The translations under genes were made by a program, and so were the position numbers. Of a stretch of 64,000 bases of DNA, positions 3,671 through 53,352 are shown piece after piece; within the stretch, counting starts at the first letter, position 1, and each line of letters begins with the position of its first letter. The notes under the pieces are model-generated. The model searched no databases. It was given only the letters and a program-made list of their open reading frames with translations, and was not told where the DNA came from. The DNA lies in the NCBI GenBank assembly GCA_937141935.1, contig CAKZQS010000042.1, positions 124,001 to 188,000 of the forward strand, written 5' to 3'. Origin of the DNA: an uncultured Ectothiorhodospiraceae bacterium (lineage in GTDB: Bacteria > Pseudomonadota > Gammaproteobacteria > Nevskiales > Oceanococcaceae).

Positions 3671-4267
3671 ATGAACAGCGAGCTACTGGGCGGCCTGGCG
3701 CTCTTCGCCTTTGCCTCCTCCATCACCCCCGGCCCCAACAACCTGATGTTGCTGGCCAGCGGGGCCAATTTCGGCCTGCGCCGCACGCTGCCGCACCTGG
3801 CCGGCGTGGCCCTGGGCTTCGTGTTCCTGCTGCTGATGGTCGGCACCGGCCTGCTGCAGCTGTTCCAGGCGCTGCCGGGCAGCCAGTGGTTGCTGAAGGT
3901 CGCGGCGGTGGGCTACCTGAGCTATCTCGCGCTGCGCATTGCCACCGCGGCGCCGGCCACGCCGGAGGTGGCCGCCAGTGGCCGCCCCTTCAGCTTCTGG
4001 CAGGCGGTGGCCTTCCAGTGGGTGAACCCCAAGGCCTGGACCATGGCCCTGACCGCGGTCGCCGTGTACGCGCCGAGCCAGAGCCTGTGGGCGGTGGCCG
4101 GCGTGGCGGGCGTCTTCGGCCTGATCAACCTGCCCTGTGTCAGCGCCTGGACGCTGCTTGGCCAGCGTCTGCGCGGGCTGCTGGCCGACCCGCGCCGCAT
4201 GCGGCTGTTCAACCGGGTGCTGGCGCTGCTGCTGCTGGCCTCGTTGATTCCGGTCCTCCGATCTTGA
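3671..4267 (+). CDS. LysE/RhtB-family amino-acid exporter
   Basis: 198 aa integral membrane protein. The first helix carries the family motif SSITPGPNNLMLLASGANFG, followed by about five more hydrophobic segments and a conserved QWVNPKAW segment near residue 117. LysE/RhtB proteins export basic or neutral amino acids and homoserine lactones using the proton gradient. Divergent from the Lrp-type gene, which probably senses the exported amino acid. The ATG at 3671 places the start just before helix 1; ATGs at 3653 and 3665 are also in frame. The substrate is unknown. Confidence 0.88.
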   Translation: MNSELLGGLALFAFASSITPGPNNLMLLASGANFGLRRTLPHLAGVALGFVFLLLMVGTGLLQLFQALPGSQWLLKVAAVGYLSYLALRIATAAPATPEVAASGRPFSFWQAVAFQWVNPKAWTMALTAVAVYAPSQSLWAVAGVAGVFGLINLPCVSAWTLLGQRLRGLLADPRRMRLFNRVLALLLLASLIPVLRS

Positions 4268-4272
4268 GGAAG

Positions 4273-4418: not shown

Positions 4419-5030
4419 CTAACGCGGCTTCGCGGGTGTGCCCAGCGTCGCGTCGTCTGCCGTGGAGGCCGCCAGCATCTCGCGCAGCGCCGAGGTGCCC
4501 AGCGCGCGCAGCCTTTCGATGTTGCGCTCGGGTACGGCGTCCACGTCGGGGTAGGCGGCAATCGCGGCCTCCAGGCTGGCTTCGCGCAGGATGTGCAGCA
4601 TGGGGTAGGGGGAGCGGTTGCTGTAGTTCTCGGCGTCCTCGGGCTGCGTGCCGGCGAACTGGTAGGCCGGGTGAAAGCTGGCGATCTGGAACTCGCCGAC
4701 CATGTCCAGCGCCTCAAGCAGCGCATCGGCCACGTCTAGAAAGTCGTTATAGGCCGGGAAACTGCGCAGCAGACCCGGGTGCACGAGCAATGTGGTCTCG
4801 ATCTGCGGCTCCTCGCGCAGCCGCTGCAGCTCGGCCTGCAGGTCGGCCAGCAGCGCGTCGGCATCGGCGGCCCGGCTGTGCACATAGCGCACCCGCCCGG
4901 CGTCGACTTCGCGTTGGGCGAAGGGGCACAGCTCTAGGCCGAGCACGACGGTTTCGACCCACTGGCGGGTGGCCTGGAGGGGATCGGTGGCGTGGGCGCT
5001 GGCGGACATGGGCGGGGTCATCGGGGGCAT
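4419..5030 (-). CDS. DUF1415 family protein
   Basis: 203 aa from the ATG at 5030; ATGs at 5021 and 5009 are alternatives and the ribosome site is weak. It matches the DUF1415 pattern: TRQWVETVVLGLELCPFAQ near the N-terminus, YNDFLDVADALLE in the middle, then FQIASFHPAYQFAGT, NRSPYPMLHILRE and AVPERNIERL. The single conserved Cys-Pro-Phe suggests a functional cysteine. The function of the family is not established. Predicted cytoplasmic, no signal peptide. It is divergent from gltX with a 162-bp gap. Confidence 0.85.
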   Translation of the reverse strand: MPPMTPPMSASAHATDPLQATRQWVETVVLGLELCPFAQREVDAGRVRYVHSRAADADALLADLQAELQRLREEPQIETTLLVHPGLLRSFPAYNDFLDVADALLEALDMVGEFQIASFHPAYQFAGTQPEDAENYSNRSPYPMLHILREASLEAAIAAYPDVDAVPERNIERLRALGTSALREMLAASTADDATLGTPAKPR

Positions 5031-5137
5031 TCGCGGCGCAGTGTACGCGCCTGTGGCGCGGGCGCCGCGCGGCCCTGCGCGTGCGGCTGCGGGCGTGAGC
5101 GAAAGGAAGCGGCGCGGGCGCGGGCGTGCACCGCGGC

Positions 5138-5165
5138 AAGACAGCAGCCCGGCAGCCAGTAAAAT
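5138..5165 (+). promoter_or_regulatory. gltX: Candidate sigma70-type promoter for gltX
   Basis: AAGACA (5138-5143) and TAAAAT (5160-5165) with a 16-bp spacer, about 28 bp before the gltX ATG. The -10 element is good and the -35 is weak. Confidence 0.4.
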
Positions 5166-43444: not shown

Positions 43445-43645
43445 ATGGCTGTCCAGCAGAACCGCAAGACCCGCTCCAAGCGCGACCACCGCCGCTCCCA
43501 CGATTCGCTGTCCGCGCCGACGCTGTCGGTGGACGCGACCACGGGTGAGACGCATCGCCGCCACCACGTGACCAAGGACGGCTTCTACCGCGGCCGCCAG
43601 GTCATCGTGCCGCCGCAGGTTGACGTCGAAGACGACGAAGCCTAA
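43445..43645 (+). CDS. rpmF: 50S ribosomal protein L32
   Basis: 66 aa. [20 protein letters not shown] is the conserved start (family AVQ-x-N-(K/R)-x-(T/S)-x-S-(K/R)-R), with a [25 protein letters not shown] centre. No zinc cysteines, so it is the zinc-independent form. Between yceD and plsX as in most gammaproteobacteria. A hairpin with a T-run follows. Confidence 0.97.
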
Positions 43646-43656
43646 GCCGGCCTGCA

Positions 43657-43682
43657 CGCCCGCCTTCGCGGTCGGGCGTTTT
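43657..43682 (+). terminator. Hairpin with T-run between rpmF and plsX
   Basis: CGCCCG-CC and GG-T-CGGGCG arms with a 5-nt loop, then TTTT (43679-43682), ending only 4 nt before the plsX ATG. It looks like an intrinsic terminator/attenuator and also covers the plsX ribosome-binding region. Confidence 0.65.
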
Positions 43683-43686
43683 GACC

Positions 43687-44697
43687 ATGGCAGCGCCCAG
43701 CGCAGCAATCGCCGTTGATGGCATGGGGGGCGACCACGGCCCCGATGTCGTTGTGGCGGCCTGCGCGCGGGCGCTGCGCGCCGATCCGGCGCTGAAGATC
43801 CTGCTCGTAGGCCAGCCCGAGGCGCTGGAGCGGCCGCTGCGCCGCGCCGGGCTGCACCAGGATCTGCGCTGCACCCTGCTGCCGGCCACCGAGGTCGTCG
43901 GCATGGACGAGGAGCCGGCCAAGGCCCTGCGCGGCAAGAAGGATTCGTCCATGCGCGTGGCGCTGGACTGCGTGGCCGACGGCCGCGCCGCCGCCGCCGT
44001 CAGCGCCGGCAACACCGGTGCGCTGATGGCCACCGCCCGCTTCGTGCTGAAGATGATCCCCGGCATCGACCGCCCGGCCATCATGGCCGCCGTGCCGGCC
44101 GAGCGCGGCCAGACCCAGGTGCTGGACCTGGGCGCCAATGCCGAATGCAGCCCCGAGCAACTGCTGCACTTTGGCCAGATGGGCTGCGCGGCCTGCCGCG
44201 TGCTGACCGGCAAGGCGCGGCCGACCGTGGGCCTGCTGAACATCGGCAGCGAGAGCATCAAGGGCAATACGGTGGTCAAACAGGCCGCCGATCTCTTCGC
44301 CGCCAGCTCGCTGAACTTCCACGGCTTCGTCGAGGGCAATGACATCTATGCCGGCACGGTCGATGTCGTTGTCTGCGACGGCTTTTCCGGCAATGTCGTG
44401 CTGAAGGCCAGCGAGGGCCTGGCGCGCATGCTGATGGCCGACCTCAAGGGGGCCTTCCAGCGCGGCATCTACCCGCGGCTGGCGGCGCTGCTCGCGGCGC
44501 CGGTGCTGATCGGTCTGAAACGCCACCTGGACCCCGGGCGCTACAACGGCGCCAGCCTGGTCGGGCTGCGCGGCGTGGTGGTCAAATCCCACGGCAGCGC
44601 CGATGCGGCCGCCTTCGCCAACGCCATACGCATCGCCGCGCTGGAAAGCGCGGACAACCTGCCGCAGCGCATCGCCGAAGACCTGCAGCAGGGCTGA
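43687..44697 (+). CDS. plsX: Phosphate acyltransferase PlsX
   Basis: 336 aa. Makes acyl-phosphate from acyl-ACP for phospholipid synthesis. AIAVDGMGGDHGPDVVV at the start (7-23), DGRAAAAVSAGNTGALMA, DLGANAEC, LLNIGSE-S-KGN and VVCDGFSGNVVLKASEG are PlsX hallmarks. ATG at 43687; a TTG at 43681 is in frame. The ribosome site would lie inside the preceding hairpin. Unlike the usual plsX-fabH-fabD-fabG order, no gene follows on this strand for 6.4 kb. Confidence 0.95.
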   Translation: MAAPSAAIAVDGMGGDHGPDVVVAACARALRADPALKILLVGQPEALERPLRRAGLHQDLRCTLLPATEVVGMDEEPAKALRGKKDSSMRVALDCVADGRAAAAVSAGNTGALMATARFVLKMIPGIDRPAIMAAVPAERGQTQVLDLGANAECSPEQLLHFGQMGCAACRVLTGKARPTVGLLNIGSESIKGNTVVKQAADLFAASSLNFHGFVEGNDIYAGTVDVVVCDGFSGNVVLKASEGLARMLMADLKGAFQRGIYPRLAALLAAPVLIGLKRHLDPGRYNGASLVGLRGVVVKSHGSADAAAFANAIRIAALESADNLPQRIAEDLQQG

Positions 44698-45177
44698 CGC
44701 CCGCCCGCGAATCACTCGCGTACTGCGCCCCGCGTCCGCTTCATACGACGGCCTTGAGTCATGCGCCGGCCCGTATTGACGGACAGCGCGGGCTAAGCAG
44801 GACAATGGCGAACGCGCCAAAAGCTCTTGTGGGTCGCGCAGGTCACGCGGGGCCAGGCTACCAAGCACAACTCGGCAGCGGGGGCGCCTGGAGCGGACAT
44901 GAGCGCAGGCCCGTCCGTCGCCGGAATCGCCCGCAGGGGGCGCGCAGGGACGCGCGCCCCGACCATAGGGGCATGGAGGCCCCTTCGGTCGGCCCGGCGA
45001 CGGGCGGATTAGCCGCAGCGTAGTCCGCGGAAGGCGGCGCCGTTGCCGGCACGCCAGAGCAGACCGCCAAACGGCAAGTCGTGGCCAATTCGAGCCGACC
45101 CGCTTTCGAGTATCTGCAATCAGGCACTGGGCCCGCGGTCAGGCCGACTCCAAGACAGCGCGGAGCCGCGACGGGTC
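44698..45177. other. 480-bp gene-free, hairpin-rich region between plsX and gspF
   Basis: I see no convincing gene here; small open frames lack family-like composition. It contains two adjacent perfect hairpins, 44937-44960 and 44961-44990, and a smaller one, GCGG/CCGC, near 45004-45016. It is where fabH would be expected. No tRNA, 4.5S, tmRNA or RNase P RNA landmarks were found. Confidence 0.6.
44937..44990. repeat. Two back-to-back hairpins
   Basis: First: GGGGCGCGC (44937-44945) with GCGCGCCCC (44952-44960), 6-nt loop. Second: GACC/GGTC outer (44961-44964, 44987-44990) and GGGGC/GCCCC inner arms, loop ATGGAG. Could be a palindromic element or a structured RNA; neither is proven. Confidence 0.65.
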
Positions 45178-46389
45178 TCAGCGCACCAGCTGATTCATGT
45201 CGAAGATCGGCAGCATGATCGCCAGCACGATGGTCAGCACCAGGCCGGCCATCAGCAGGATCAGCATTGGGCCCAGGATGCCCATGACGGCATTGATCAG
45301 CGTGTCGACTTCCAGCTCCTGGTTGTGCGCGGCGCGCTCCAGCATCTCGTCGAGTTCGCCGGAGGACTCGCCGTTGGCAATCAGGTTCAGCGTGATCGGC
45401 GGGAAGAGCTTGGACTCACCCAGCGAGCGGGCGATGCCGGCGCCTTCGCGCACCTTGGCCGCCGCGTTTTCGACGGCGTAGCGCATCGGCAGGTTGGACA
45501 CGACGCGGGCGCAGATCTGCATGGCCTCCAGCACCGGCACGCCGGAGGAGACCAGCATCGAGAAGGTGCGGGTGAAGCGGCCGGCGTTGACGCCGCGCTC
45601 CAGCCGGCCCACCAGCGGCAAGCGCAGTTTGACCCGGTGCCAGCGCTCCTTCAGGCGCGGCTGGCGCATGGCCCAGATCCAGCCCGCTACCGCGATGGCC
45701 AGCAGCACCAGCAGAACCACCCAGTTCTCGCGCAGCCCATCACTGGCGGCAATCAGCGCCTGCGTCAGCGGCGGCAGCTCGGCGTCCATGCTGGTGAACA
45801 CGCCCACCACCTGCGGCACCACGCTGGCCAGCAAGAAGGAGACGATGCCCACCGAGGCCAGCACCAGGATCACCGGGTAGGACAGCGCGGCGAAGATTTT
45901 CTTCTGCAGCTCCTGGCGGCGCTCGACGTATTCGGCCAGGCGCTCCAGCACCAGGTCCAGGCGGCCGGACTGCTCGCCGGATTCGACGGTGGCGCAGTAC
46001 ATCTCGTTGAAGATGTGGCCGTAGTCGCGCAGCGCGTGAGCCAGCGTATGGCCCTCGACCACGCGGGCGCGGATGCCCATCACCACGGCGCGCACGCGGC
46101 GGCCTTCCATCTGGTTGGCCGCCGTCGACAGCGATTCCTCCAGCGGCAGCCCGGAGCGCACCAGCGTGGCCAGCTGGCGGGTGAACAGGGCGACGGTCGT
46201 GGCCGGCAGGCCGCGCTCGAAGCGAAAACCCCCGCCGGCGCGCTCGGCCTGGGCCACCTCGGTGACCTCCAGCGGCGTCAGGCCGCGCTCGCGCAGCAGG
46301 CCGCGTACCACCTTGGCGGTGTCGCCCTCCTGCAAGCCGCGCTTTTTCTTGCCGCGCGCGTCGAGCGCGACGTAGCTATATGCGGCCAT
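45178..46389 (-). CDS. gspF: Type II secretion system inner-membrane protein GspF
   Basis: 403 aa. Two T2SSF domains (about 70-190 and 270-395) with three membrane segments. Signature: LFTRQLATLVRSGLPLEESL, then FTRTFSMLVSSGVPVLEAM and GESSGELDEMLERAA. Forms the inner-membrane platform with GspC, GspL, GspM and the ATPase. Last gene of the C-D-E-F run; 30 bp after gspE. GspG onwards is not in the window. Confidence 0.95.
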   Translation of the reverse strand: MAAYSYVALDARGKKKRGLQEGDTAKVVRGLLRERGLTPLEVTEVAQAERAGGGFRFERGLPATTVALFTRQLATLVRSGLPLEESLSTAANQMEGRRVRAVVMGIRARVVEGHTLAHALRDYGHIFNEMYCATVESGEQSGRLDLVLERLAEYVERRQELQKKIFAALSYPVILVLASVGIVSFLLASVVPQVVGVFTSMDAELPPLTQALIAASDGLRENWVVLLVLLAIAVAGWIWAMRQPRLKERWHRVKLRLPLVGRLERGVNAGRFTRTFSMLVSSGVPVLEAMQICARVVSNLPMRYAVENAAAKVREGAGIARSLGESKLFPPITLNLIANGESSGELDEMLERAAHNQELEVDTLINAVMGILGPMLILLMAGLVLTIVLAIMLPIFDMNQLVR

Positions 46390-51061: not shown

Positions 51062-51147
51062 GGCAAGCCCCTAGTTTCTCATGATTTCGACGGCCTCGCG
51101 TGCGCCTGCTATGTTTGCGCGGACAAGGGACAGGGAGAGATCGACCG

Positions 51148-53352
51148 ATGCGGACGTGGATTCGTTCCGGCCTCGTGCTGGCCTTGTTCCTGATCTTTGT
51201 GGGCCACGCCGCCGGCTGGCTGCGCTGGGGCCTGCTGGCCCAGCTCGAGTTCTTCGCCTACGACGTGCAGGTGCGTGCGGACGCCCGCGGCAATGCCGTC
51301 GACCGCCGTGTTGTCGTGCTCGATATCGACGAGCCCAGCTTGGCCCGCGAGGGGCAGTGGCCCTGGCCGCGGGCGCGGCTGGCCGAGATCGTCGAGCGGC
51401 TGTACCGCGACTACGGCGTGTTCACCATCGGCTTCGATATCGTCTTCGCCGAGCCCGGCCGCGGCACCGGCGATGGCGTGTTCGAGGCGCTGCGCCGCAG
51501 CGAACTGGGCCAGCAGCCGCTGGCCGCCGTGCTGCTGACCGAACTGCAGAGCCAGCTCGGCGGCGATGCGCGCTTTGCCCAGGCGCTGGGGCAGGGCCGC
51601 AGCGTGATGGGCTTCGTGCTCAAGGGTGAACTCGACGACCCGCTGCAGATCGGGGCCTTGCCCGAGAGCGACCTGCCCGACACCACGCTGTGGCCGGCGA
51701 CGGCCTACCGCTCCAACAGCTACACCGGCAACGTGGCCCTGCTGCAGCAGGGGCGCGGGGGGGGCTTCTTCAACAACCCCGCCCTGGACACCGACGGCGT
51801 GTTCCGCCGGGTGGCGCTGCTGCAGGCCCACGAGGGCCAGTACTACCCCTCGCTGGCGCTGGCCACGCTGCGCGCCGCGCTGGGCGACCCGGAGATCGGG
51901 CTCGACTACGACGGGGCGCCCGACCCGCTGAATATCGAGGCGCTGCGCATCGGCGAGCGCTACCGCGTGCCGGTGGACGAGACGCTGTCGGCCCTGGTGC
52001 CCTACAGCGGGGCCGGTGGCGCCTTCGCCCGGGTCGCGGCCTGGGAGGTGCTGGCCGGCCAGGCCGATGCCGAGCTGCTCAAGGACGCCATCGTGCTGGT
52101 CGGCACCACCGCCCCCGGCCTGAAAGACCTGCGCAACACGCCGGTGGATGTGGCGCTGCCCGGCGTCGAAGTCCACGCCAACCTGATCACCGGCATCCTC
52201 GACGACCGGGTCAAGACCCGCGTGCCCTACCGCCTGGGCATTGTCATCGTGCAGCTGCTGCTGATTGCGCTGGCGATGCACCTGCTGTTCCCGCGGCTGC
52301 CGCCGACCGCGGGCACGCTGCTGGCCATCGGCATGGGGCTGGCCATCGTGCTGCTGGCGCGCGTGGCCTGGAGCGTCAACAACTTCGTCATGCCGCTGGG
52401 CCTGCCGCTCGCGTTCCTGGTGGCCAACGTGCTGCTGCAGGTGACCTGGAGCTATTTCGTCGAGGCGCGGTCGCGGCGCTCGATCTCGCACGCCTTTGGC
52501 CAGTACGTGCCGCCGGAGGTGGTCGAGGAGCTGGCCGAGCAGCCCGAGCTGCTGGGGCGAGAGGCCGAGCACCGTGAGCTGACGGTGCTGTTTTCGGACG
52601 TGCGCGGCTTCACCAGCATCAGCGAAAAGCTCTCCCCCGAGGAGCTGTCCCGGCTGATGAATGCCCTGCTGACCCCGCTGACCGAGGTGATTCACGCGCA
52701 CCGGGGCACCATCGACAAATACATGGGCGACGCGATCATGGCCTTCTGGGGCGCGCCGCTGCCGCAGCCGCAACACAATCGCCTGGCGCTGGAGGCGGCG
52801 CTGGCTATGCTGGCGCGCATCCGCGAGGTGGGCGACGACTTCGCCCAGCGCGGCTGGCCGCGCCTGCAGCTGGGCATCGGCCTGAACACCGGGCCCATGA
52901 GCGTGGGCAACATGGGCTCGGAGTTCCGCCGCGCCTACACGGTGCTGGGCGATGCGGTGAACCTTGGCTCGCGGCTGGAAGGGCTGACCAAGGCCTACGG
53001 CGTGGACATCATCTGCGCCGACAGCACCCGCCAGGGCATGGACGACTGGCTGTTCCGTGAGCTGGACCGGGTGCGGGTCAAGGGCAAGCAGGAGCCGGTG
53101 GCGATCTTCGAGCCGCTGGGGCCGCGCGATGCGCTGGACAAGACCCAGCGCCGCGAACTGGCCGACTACCGCAAGGCGCTGATGGCCTATCGCGAGCAGG
53201 ACTGGGCCGGTGCCGAGGCCGGCTTTGCCGCCCTGGCGAGCGCGCAGCCGAACTGCCGGCTGTATGCCTTGTACGGCGAGCGCATCGCGGTCTTCCGCCA
53301 GCAACCGCCGGGGCCCGACTGGGACGGCGTGTATACCCACCAAAGCAAGTAA
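51148..53352 (+). CDS. CHASE2-domain class III adenylate/guanylate cyclase
   Basis: 734 aa. N-terminal helix (4-24), extracytoplasmic CHASE2 sensor (about 25-345: DEPSLAREGQWPWPRARLAEI, GFDIVFAEP), three C-terminal helices (about 360-445), a linker, and a cyclase domain with metal-binding VLFSDVRGFTSISE (Asp near 484), and DKYMGDAIMAFWGAP, then RAYTVLGDAVNLGSRLEG. The Lys in DKYMGD and the Thr in YTVLGD fit ATP specificity (class IIIb). It would make cAMP in response to an envelope signal. The ATG at 51148 has GGGAGAGA upstream. Divergent from gspC; function link not shown. Confidence 0.9.
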   Translation: MRTWIRSGLVLALFLIFVGHAAGWLRWGLLAQLEFFAYDVQVRADARGNAVDRRVVVLDIDEPSLAREGQWPWPRARLAEIVERLYRDYGVFTIGFDIVFAEPGRGTGDGVFEALRRSELGQQPLAAVLLTELQSQLGGDARFAQALGQGRSVMGFVLKGELDDPLQIGALPESDLPDTTLWPATAYRSNSYTGNVALLQQGRGGGFFNNPALDTDGVFRRVALLQAHEGQYYPSLALATLRAALGDPEIGLDYDGAPDPLNIEALRIGERYRVPVDETLSALVPYSGAGGAFARVAAWEVLAGQADAELLKDAIVLVGTTAPGLKDLRNTPVDVALPGVEVHANLITGILDDRVKTRVPYRLGIVIVQLLLIALAMHLLFPRLPPTAGTLLAIGMGLAIVLLARVAWSVNNFVMPLGLPLAFLVANVLLQVTWSYFVEARSRRSISHAFGQYVPPEVVEELAEQPELLGREAEHRELTVLFSDVRGFTSISEKLSPEELSRLMNALLTPLTEVIHAHRGTIDKYMGDAIMAFWGAPLPQPQHNRLALEAALAMLARIREVGDDFAQRGWPRLQLGIGLNTGPMSVGNMGSEFRRAYTVLGDAVNLGSRLEGLTKAYGVDIICADSTRQGMDDWLFRELDRVRVKGKQEPVAIFEPLGPRDALDKTQRRELADYRKALMAYREQDWAGAEAGFAALASAQPNCRLYALYGERIAVFRQQPPGPDWDGVYTHQSK

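Follow-up and report, generated by a model that had tools for sequence, protein, structure and literature searches.

Within the window, the whole 64,000-nucleotide stretch of DNA analysed here, a 480-bp gap lies between the convergent genes plsX and gspF. The plsX product matches PF02504 (E 5e-101) and TIGR00182, that of gspF, protein F of the type II secretion system (T2SS), matches PF00482 (T2SSF; E 4.6e-62), and the stop side of gspF at 45178 faces the end of plsX at 44697. An earlier note on this DNA had described the gap as free of genes, and this description holds: the two frames within it, 44754-45023 (+) and 44858-45127 (-), are spurious, and neither matched a Pfam family. Rfam gave no match in the window at gathering score, and at E<=10 on a 701-bp stretch it gave just two, both by chance. 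Promoter and intrinsic-terminator scans of 43500-46000 found nothing, with 0 sites there that combine a GC-rich hairpin with a T tract. Further along, at 51100-53352 (+), Pfam identifies a gene with CHASE2 and adenylate/guanylate cyclase domains, which lies upstream of the T2SS cluster and is divergent from it. The gap holds an element of about 136 bp, a long stem tipped by two hairpins, with the following layout (R1 and R2 are covariance models described below).

43681-44697, + strand: plsX, upstream neighbour
44698-45177, no strand: gap between the convergent plsX and gspF
44893-45028, + strand: repeat element, one module, on the strand with the GGA loops (R1 match at 44893-45044, 140.3 bits, the window copy being part of the model; conserved ends; fold)
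44893-44898, + strand: terminal stem, 5' arm, pairing with 45023-45028 (conserved ends and fold)
44911-44924, + strand: outer stem, 5' arm, 14 nt (compensatory changes)
44937-44960, + strand: hairpin 1, hexaloop AGGGAC at 44946-44951 (fold; independent R2 match at 44937-44990)
44961-44990, + strand: hairpin 2, 2x2 internal loop, hexaloop AUGGAG at 44973-44978 (fold; R2 match)
44994-45007, + strand: outer stem, 3' arm, 14 nt, pairing with 44911-44924
45023-45028, + strand: terminal stem, 3' arm (conserved ends and fold)
45178-46389, - strand: gspF, convergent downstream neighbour

The two perfect back-to-back hairpins reported previously are indeed adjacent. Only the first is perfect, with a stem of 9 bp; the second is interrupted by its internal loop, and the long stem that carries both had been overlooked. 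The + strand folds at -99.0 kcal/mol (z -5.37) and the - strand with a smaller excess (z -3.63); 0 of 200 dinucleotide shuffles did as well on either strand.

A dispersed repeat related to TwoAYGGAY

The 3.57-Mb genome from which the window comes contains seven further matches to the gap DNA, each about 135-180 bp long and 78-87% identical to it, which makes eight copies in all. These strong copies occupy six loci, two of them (on contigs C4 and C43) inverted pairs, and all six loci lie between convergent genes, with both neighbours supported by Pfam at the window, C33 and C9; the remaining three loci rest on frame calls. The earlier note had guessed at a structured RNA or a mobile palindrome and had proposed counting copies of the hairpin pair. 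The guess was a good one, in that the element is a dispersed palindromic repeat with conserved structure and loop motif, and we have little doubt that the gap holds one copy of such a family in the window's genome.

Covariance model R1 was built from the eight own-genome copies and one congeneric copy. It has 11 matches in the own genome, five in the congener G001 (three strong and two weaker copies), and weaker ones elsewhere, four in G060 and one each in G049 and G042, hence matches in five of 61 genomes, the own one included, if G042 is counted. Scores of strong copies run from 87 to 146 bits. At 28.5 bits, the match in G042 was put down to chance and left aside. An exact search for the end pattern in a collection of named genomes, in which the own record may be absent, returned no copy.

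The stems of these copies are changed and compensated. In a 24-row alignment by covariance model, which is fitted to structure, 40 of 47 pairs have both partners changed. Of its cells, 92.4% are paired, compared with 67.7% for shuffled partners and 38-41% for slid ones. A MAFFT alignment of nine copies, not fitted to structure, still has 15 of 47 pairs doubly changed. Part of this covariation could stem from palindrome correction at the DNA level. A gap with neither transcript nor conserved structure in relatives had been named in the earlier note as grounds for giving up its guess; as to structure, the compensated stem changes and constant loops are the opposite of such a lack.

Some loci are more complex. 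To the eye, a truncated 5' half of the element sits upstream of a full copy and in the same orientation at L180 (G000:C33:1-10000, about 4840-4910). Several-hundred-bp intergenic mosaics of nested hairpins in G060 (L038, L043, L046, L049) and G049 (L039) contain a window-like module, several of them also a TwoAYGGAY module in opposite orientation, and in L038 a hairpin has apparently grown at its tip.

Rfam identifies the partner modules of G049 and G060 as TwoAYGGAY (RF01731; E 1.4e-6 and 5.9e-6). RF01731 does not match the window copy at E<=10 (gathering score 43 bits), and the best Rfam match of the window stretch is to RsmW, of the same clan as TwoAYGGAY (18.2 bits, E 0.49; gathering score 52 bits). 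Model R2 was built from 20 TwoAYGGAY-type modules, with no window-type copy among them. It matches the window exactly at 44937-44990, with E 3.5e-4 over the 844 kb searched, and reaches E values as low as 3e-7 at further copies of the window type. As R2 recognizes the window core, we treat the window type as a subtype of a superfamily that includes TwoAYGGAY, and not as a member of RF01731 itself. Matches to RF01731 occur in 23 of 61 genomes, mostly with several copies each: six in the own genome (G000), 14 in G001, 19 in G044 and at least 38 in G036. In a wider sample of the class, 10 of 143 genomes have them, G000 and G001 included; among the other eight, G145 has at least 18 and G069 has 13.

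Placement of the modules relative to genes was examined in 80 stretches, mostly of about 10 kb, with 82 clusters, of which three lay at a stretch edge and 79 were classifiable. Gene calls were home-made, in two sets that disagree at some loci, and control gaps were those of at least 100 bp. Among the 79 clusters, 0 or 1 fall in divergent gaps, vs 54 of 159 or 56 of 151 controls, and 36 or 39 fall in convergent gaps, vs 11 of 159 or 11 of 151. Both the avoidance and the excess have p below 1e-10 in all cases, with clusters treated as independent. These counts stand uncorrected for L180 and L182, which were called tandem and later shown to be convergent, the frames of a RadA-like protein and an AI-2E transporter having been missed.

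Where modules are paired, the order is -,+ in 32 of 32 cases, with the GGA strands pointing outward. Two of the six strong own-genome loci are among these inverted pairs; the window copy is single. A comparison of the window gap's flanks with the flanks and spacers of five other loci gave no similarity above threshold that would indicate a decayed partner module in the remaining gap. The three pairs listed for G145, of a distant family, have the same order. G036 (L214-L233) carries a composite of about 330 bp, consisting of a module, a palindromic spacer and an opposite module, in at least 18 similar copies; the spacer shared by its 18 pairs has two different ends and is found in both orientations. 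The idea that pair spacers hold two divergent sRNA promoters was dropped, as the G036 spacers are palindromic and just slightly AT-richer (AT 0.36-0.43 vs 0.32-0.36 for their stretches).

Single modules in tandem gaps have no sense preference. Rough calls give 8 sense vs 18 antisense, or 7 vs 17 once L180 and L182 are removed. If modules are counted only where Pfam supports both flanks, and orthologues count once, 4 are sense (the prkA site described below, L194, L197, L240) vs 9 antisense (L185, L202, L204, L205/L209, L206, L208, L235, L239, L242), and the antisense bias is insignificant (p 0.27). Eleven tandem singles out of 26 do not enter this count: L203, L213, L234, L246, L247, L249, L250 and the second module of L194, where a flank is unverified; L244, whose neighbour is 1.5 kb away; and the wrongly called L180 and L182.

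Constant loops, strand polarity and a fixed site

The loops change far less than the stems. Once two hairpin-only rows, both antisense, are set aside from the 24-row R1 alignment, each of the remaining 22 has GGA in both of its loops. R2 gave 111 matches in ten genomes; 104 of them have GGA in the first loop, 103 in the second and 96 in both, while the 5' arms comprise 44 and 49 distinct sequences and 95.5% of cells pair. Since the loops are kept while the stems are replaced, this pattern points to a factor that would bind the loops. The exceptions among the 222 loops are 13 with CGA and two with GGC. Modules with a CGA loop were noted at L192, L193 and other loci of G001 and at loci of G036; they may be copies that have lost a putative binding site.

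The site pattern of CsrA/RsmA is C[A-N-GGA-N]G. Of the 111 modules, 30 fit it strictly in the first loop and 65 in the second; the remaining loops are shorter or begin with C. The window copy has GGA in the loops of stable hairpins, as is expected of RNAs that bind CsrA/RsmA. There is one csrA gene in the own genome, and its product starts MLILTRKRGE and contains the HREEV stretch, which is important in CsrA.

A GGA strand that folds by itself should carry more G.T pairs than A.C mismatches. In 11 strong copies there are 13 distinct G.T pair types vs two A.C, the structure being predicted with an energy model in which G.U is favoured. The outer arms were aligned without wobble preference in 24 elements, the number left after de-duplication of the 43 among 111 modules whose outer palindrome is good. 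They give 37 G.T vs 17 A.C, against a ratio of 0.77 in shuffled sequences (p 0.0003), and the sign per element is 13 vs 4 (p 0.049). By source, the two congeners contribute 27 vs 6 and the other five genomes 10 vs 11. Within the hairpins of the 111 modules the bias is weak (20 vs 12 distinct) and G.U is rare, at 35 of 2195 cells. Taken together, the polarity supports a GGA strand that acts single-stranded, as RNA or as ssDNA, in the window's genus. The outer arms themselves vary: in 100-base flanks of the 111 modules their median pairing score is 16 vs 10 for shuffled sequences, and they score above every shuffled control in only a third. The long outer palindrome is therefore common and not universal.

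One site is shared by the two congeners. G000 and G001 each have a module in the spacer from prkA to a DUF444 (yeaH-like) gene, both genes identified by Pfam, in sense orientation to these co-directional genes (- strand in both: L186, G000:C42:1-9200, 4129-4271; L190 of G001, 4999-5163). The element can be aligned between the two species, and most of the remaining spacer cannot. GGA is retained in both loops of both species. Of the pairs, 33 can be compared: 20 are identical in the two species, one has a one-sided change, six are doubly changed and six are broken; the count comes from a covariance-model alignment in which the outer stem is partly misaligned, and 14 pairs are beyond comparison. 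In 12 further genomes the DUF444 locus (L283-L293, L296), which may or may not include prkA, has no module. Judged from this comparison, conservation at the prkA site is evidence for a probable function at a fixed place.

Readings of the element and known systems

We tentatively favour, at somewhat less than even confidence, a REPIN-like intergenic repeat that would spread as DNA and whose conserved part would be an RNA with two putative CsrA/RsmA sites. The repeat would move by a route independent of RAYT. A readthrough transcript, here from plsX and at pairs from either side, would carry the element, and the RNA would display two GGA hexaloops 27 nt apart, a distance that one CsrA/RsmA dimer may bridge. 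The copies would jointly serve as CsrA decoys or as local CsrA sites at 3' ends. The CsrA mechanism is kept tentative because single copies show no preference for the sense strand. Other points that speak against it are the 13 CGA and two GGC loops, the scarcity of G.U and the weak bias in the hairpins, an outer-arm polarity that comes from the two congeners, possible palindrome correction in the DNA, the lack of an RF01731 match for the window copy and the broken pairs at the prkA site.

Possible too, if on balance doubtful, is a miniature mobile element of the REPIN/BIME kind that is DNA only and has no RNA role, with the hairpins and GGA loops serving as recognition features for a transposase or other DNA-binding protein on ssDNA or a cruciform. 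The element is multicopy and dispersed, all of the pairs are outward-facing and inverted, and the G036 pairs share their two-ended palindromic spacer in both orientations, as suits such an element; avoidance of divergent gaps is expected of any insertion, and the lack of a sense bias agrees with it. Two diverged copies (L051, L056) also have, at their outer ends, a GTAGG.AGC...GCGAC frame like that of the Xanthomonas REPs described in PMC2817692. Against this, no Y1_Tnp (PF01797) match exists in the own genome, and a Y1/RAYT gene is likewise missing from G036 and G044 with their many modules. An RNA accounts better for the strand polarity seen in the congeners and for the constraint on an orthologous copy between co-directional genes, although a strand-specific ssDNA element could likewise yield polarity.

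Mobilisation of the elements by RAYT is unsupported. Carriers of TwoAYGGAY lack Y1/RAYT in 8 of 23 cases (G036 and G044 among them) vs 8 of 38 non-carriers (p 0.37), and no R1 match lies around the single PF01797 match of G001. In G060 (L070), short palindromes at about 715-790 and 1285-1355 border the Y1/RAYT gene and read like ordinary REPs, and one larger element lies about 370 bp from the matched Y1/RAYT domain. Given the independence from RAYT and the ordinary REP-like palindromes at the G060 gene, the REP-likeness of some outer ends is therefore a likeness only and is no proof of a shared mobiliser.

We regard as improbable a third reading, in which the element is a shared bidirectional transcription end or an mRNA 3'-end stabiliser of convergent genes and its GGA loops are incidental. 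The excess in convergent gaps under both sets of gene calls and the very stable fold of both strands are what it would call for, but no terminator-like site with a T tract exists in 43500-46000, and a terminator has no need of identical loop bases while the stems change completely.

The chance that the gap marks a chromosomal rearrangement that took the fab cluster away from plsX, as the earlier note proposed, is very slight, and among the genomes searched that reading is refuted. The fab cluster is indeed missing after plsX, to the extent that fabH does not adjoin it, but the same is true of all 19 genomes with plsX (TIGR00182; 19 of 21 searched). All 21 genomes have a match of the fabH type (TIGR00747), which exceeds the curated cut-off in 15 of them. 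Locating fabH, also suggested in that note, places fabH-type genes elsewhere in the own genome, on C35 and C52 with a weaker match on C45, which counts in favour of a rearrangement.

The convergent junction itself recurs in relatives. With at least 857 bases 3' of plsX read in each of 18 relatives, tblastn with the window's GspF as query finds a convergent gspF 6-365 bp after plsX in ten, at the following distances.

G013, 6 bp
G016, 6 bp
G002, 8 bp
G003, 8 bp
G006, 14 bp
G020, 28 bp
G001, 35 bp
G005, 88 bp
G007, 94 bp
G010, 365 bp

Pfam confirms T2SSF for the gspF of G001, G002, G020 and G010. In G004, G012 and G018 gspF is further off on the same strand, within the stretch read, and in five of the 18 it was not found in that stretch. 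None of the 18 has a module at plsX (best R1 match 17.2 bits, E 0.046; no R2 match at E<=1). The window gap was therefore enlarged by insertion at an old convergent junction in the window's lineage.

Returning to the CsrA reading, a broader proposal is that a selfish or semi-selfish repeat has brought pairs of CsrA-type hairpins to many 3' ends, so that mRNA tails would form a distributed CsrA sponge; we consider this rather unlikely. If it were true, the outward-facing pairs would guarantee one sense module in readthrough from either side. TwoAYGGAY is an Rfam family without known function, and its repeat behaviour links REP-like mobile DNA with Csr/Rsm post-transcriptional control and raises the question of CsrA titration by dispersed repeats. 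A search of the open-access literature found no paper that joins the two subjects; subscription papers were mostly outside its scope. What is new here is the window-type subtype and the multicopy, outward-paired behaviour of a known orphan motif.

Among known systems, TwoAYGGAY (RF01731, clan CL00106) is like the window type in having two adjacent ...GGA... hairpins on a closing stem, and its matches in these genomes are dispersed and often paired, as the window-type copies are. The window type differs by an additional CCC...GGG mini-hairpin and its own conserved flanks (CATGAGCG.AGGCCCG / GGATNAGCCG.AGCGTAG), and its loops AGGGAC and AUGGAG follow ANGGAN, so that the Y positions of AYGGAY are not all matched. 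TwoAYGGAY was listed as a probable RNA by Weinberg et al. (PMC2864571) and is described as a predicted CsrA binder on account of its loop pattern (PMC4333381).

REPs, REPINs and BIMEs, as presented in PMC3116915 and PMC2817692, resemble the element as dispersed extragenic palindromes that form inverted doublets. The element is longer, at its 136 bp or so, than the some 20-35 nt of REPs given in PMC2817692, and the window copy ends without the GT(A/G)G head. Unlike REPs mobilised by RAYT, the element has no RAYT dependence and conserves its GGA loops.

CsrB/C, RsmX/Y/Z, RsmW and RsmU of Xanthomonas each come from one or few dedicated loci per genome. These RNAs share with the window type GGA in hairpin loops. 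RsmU is processed out of an mRNA 3' UTR (PMC7694677). In contrast to these RNAs that sequester CsrA/RsmA, the window type is a dispersed repeat with two putative sites per copy.
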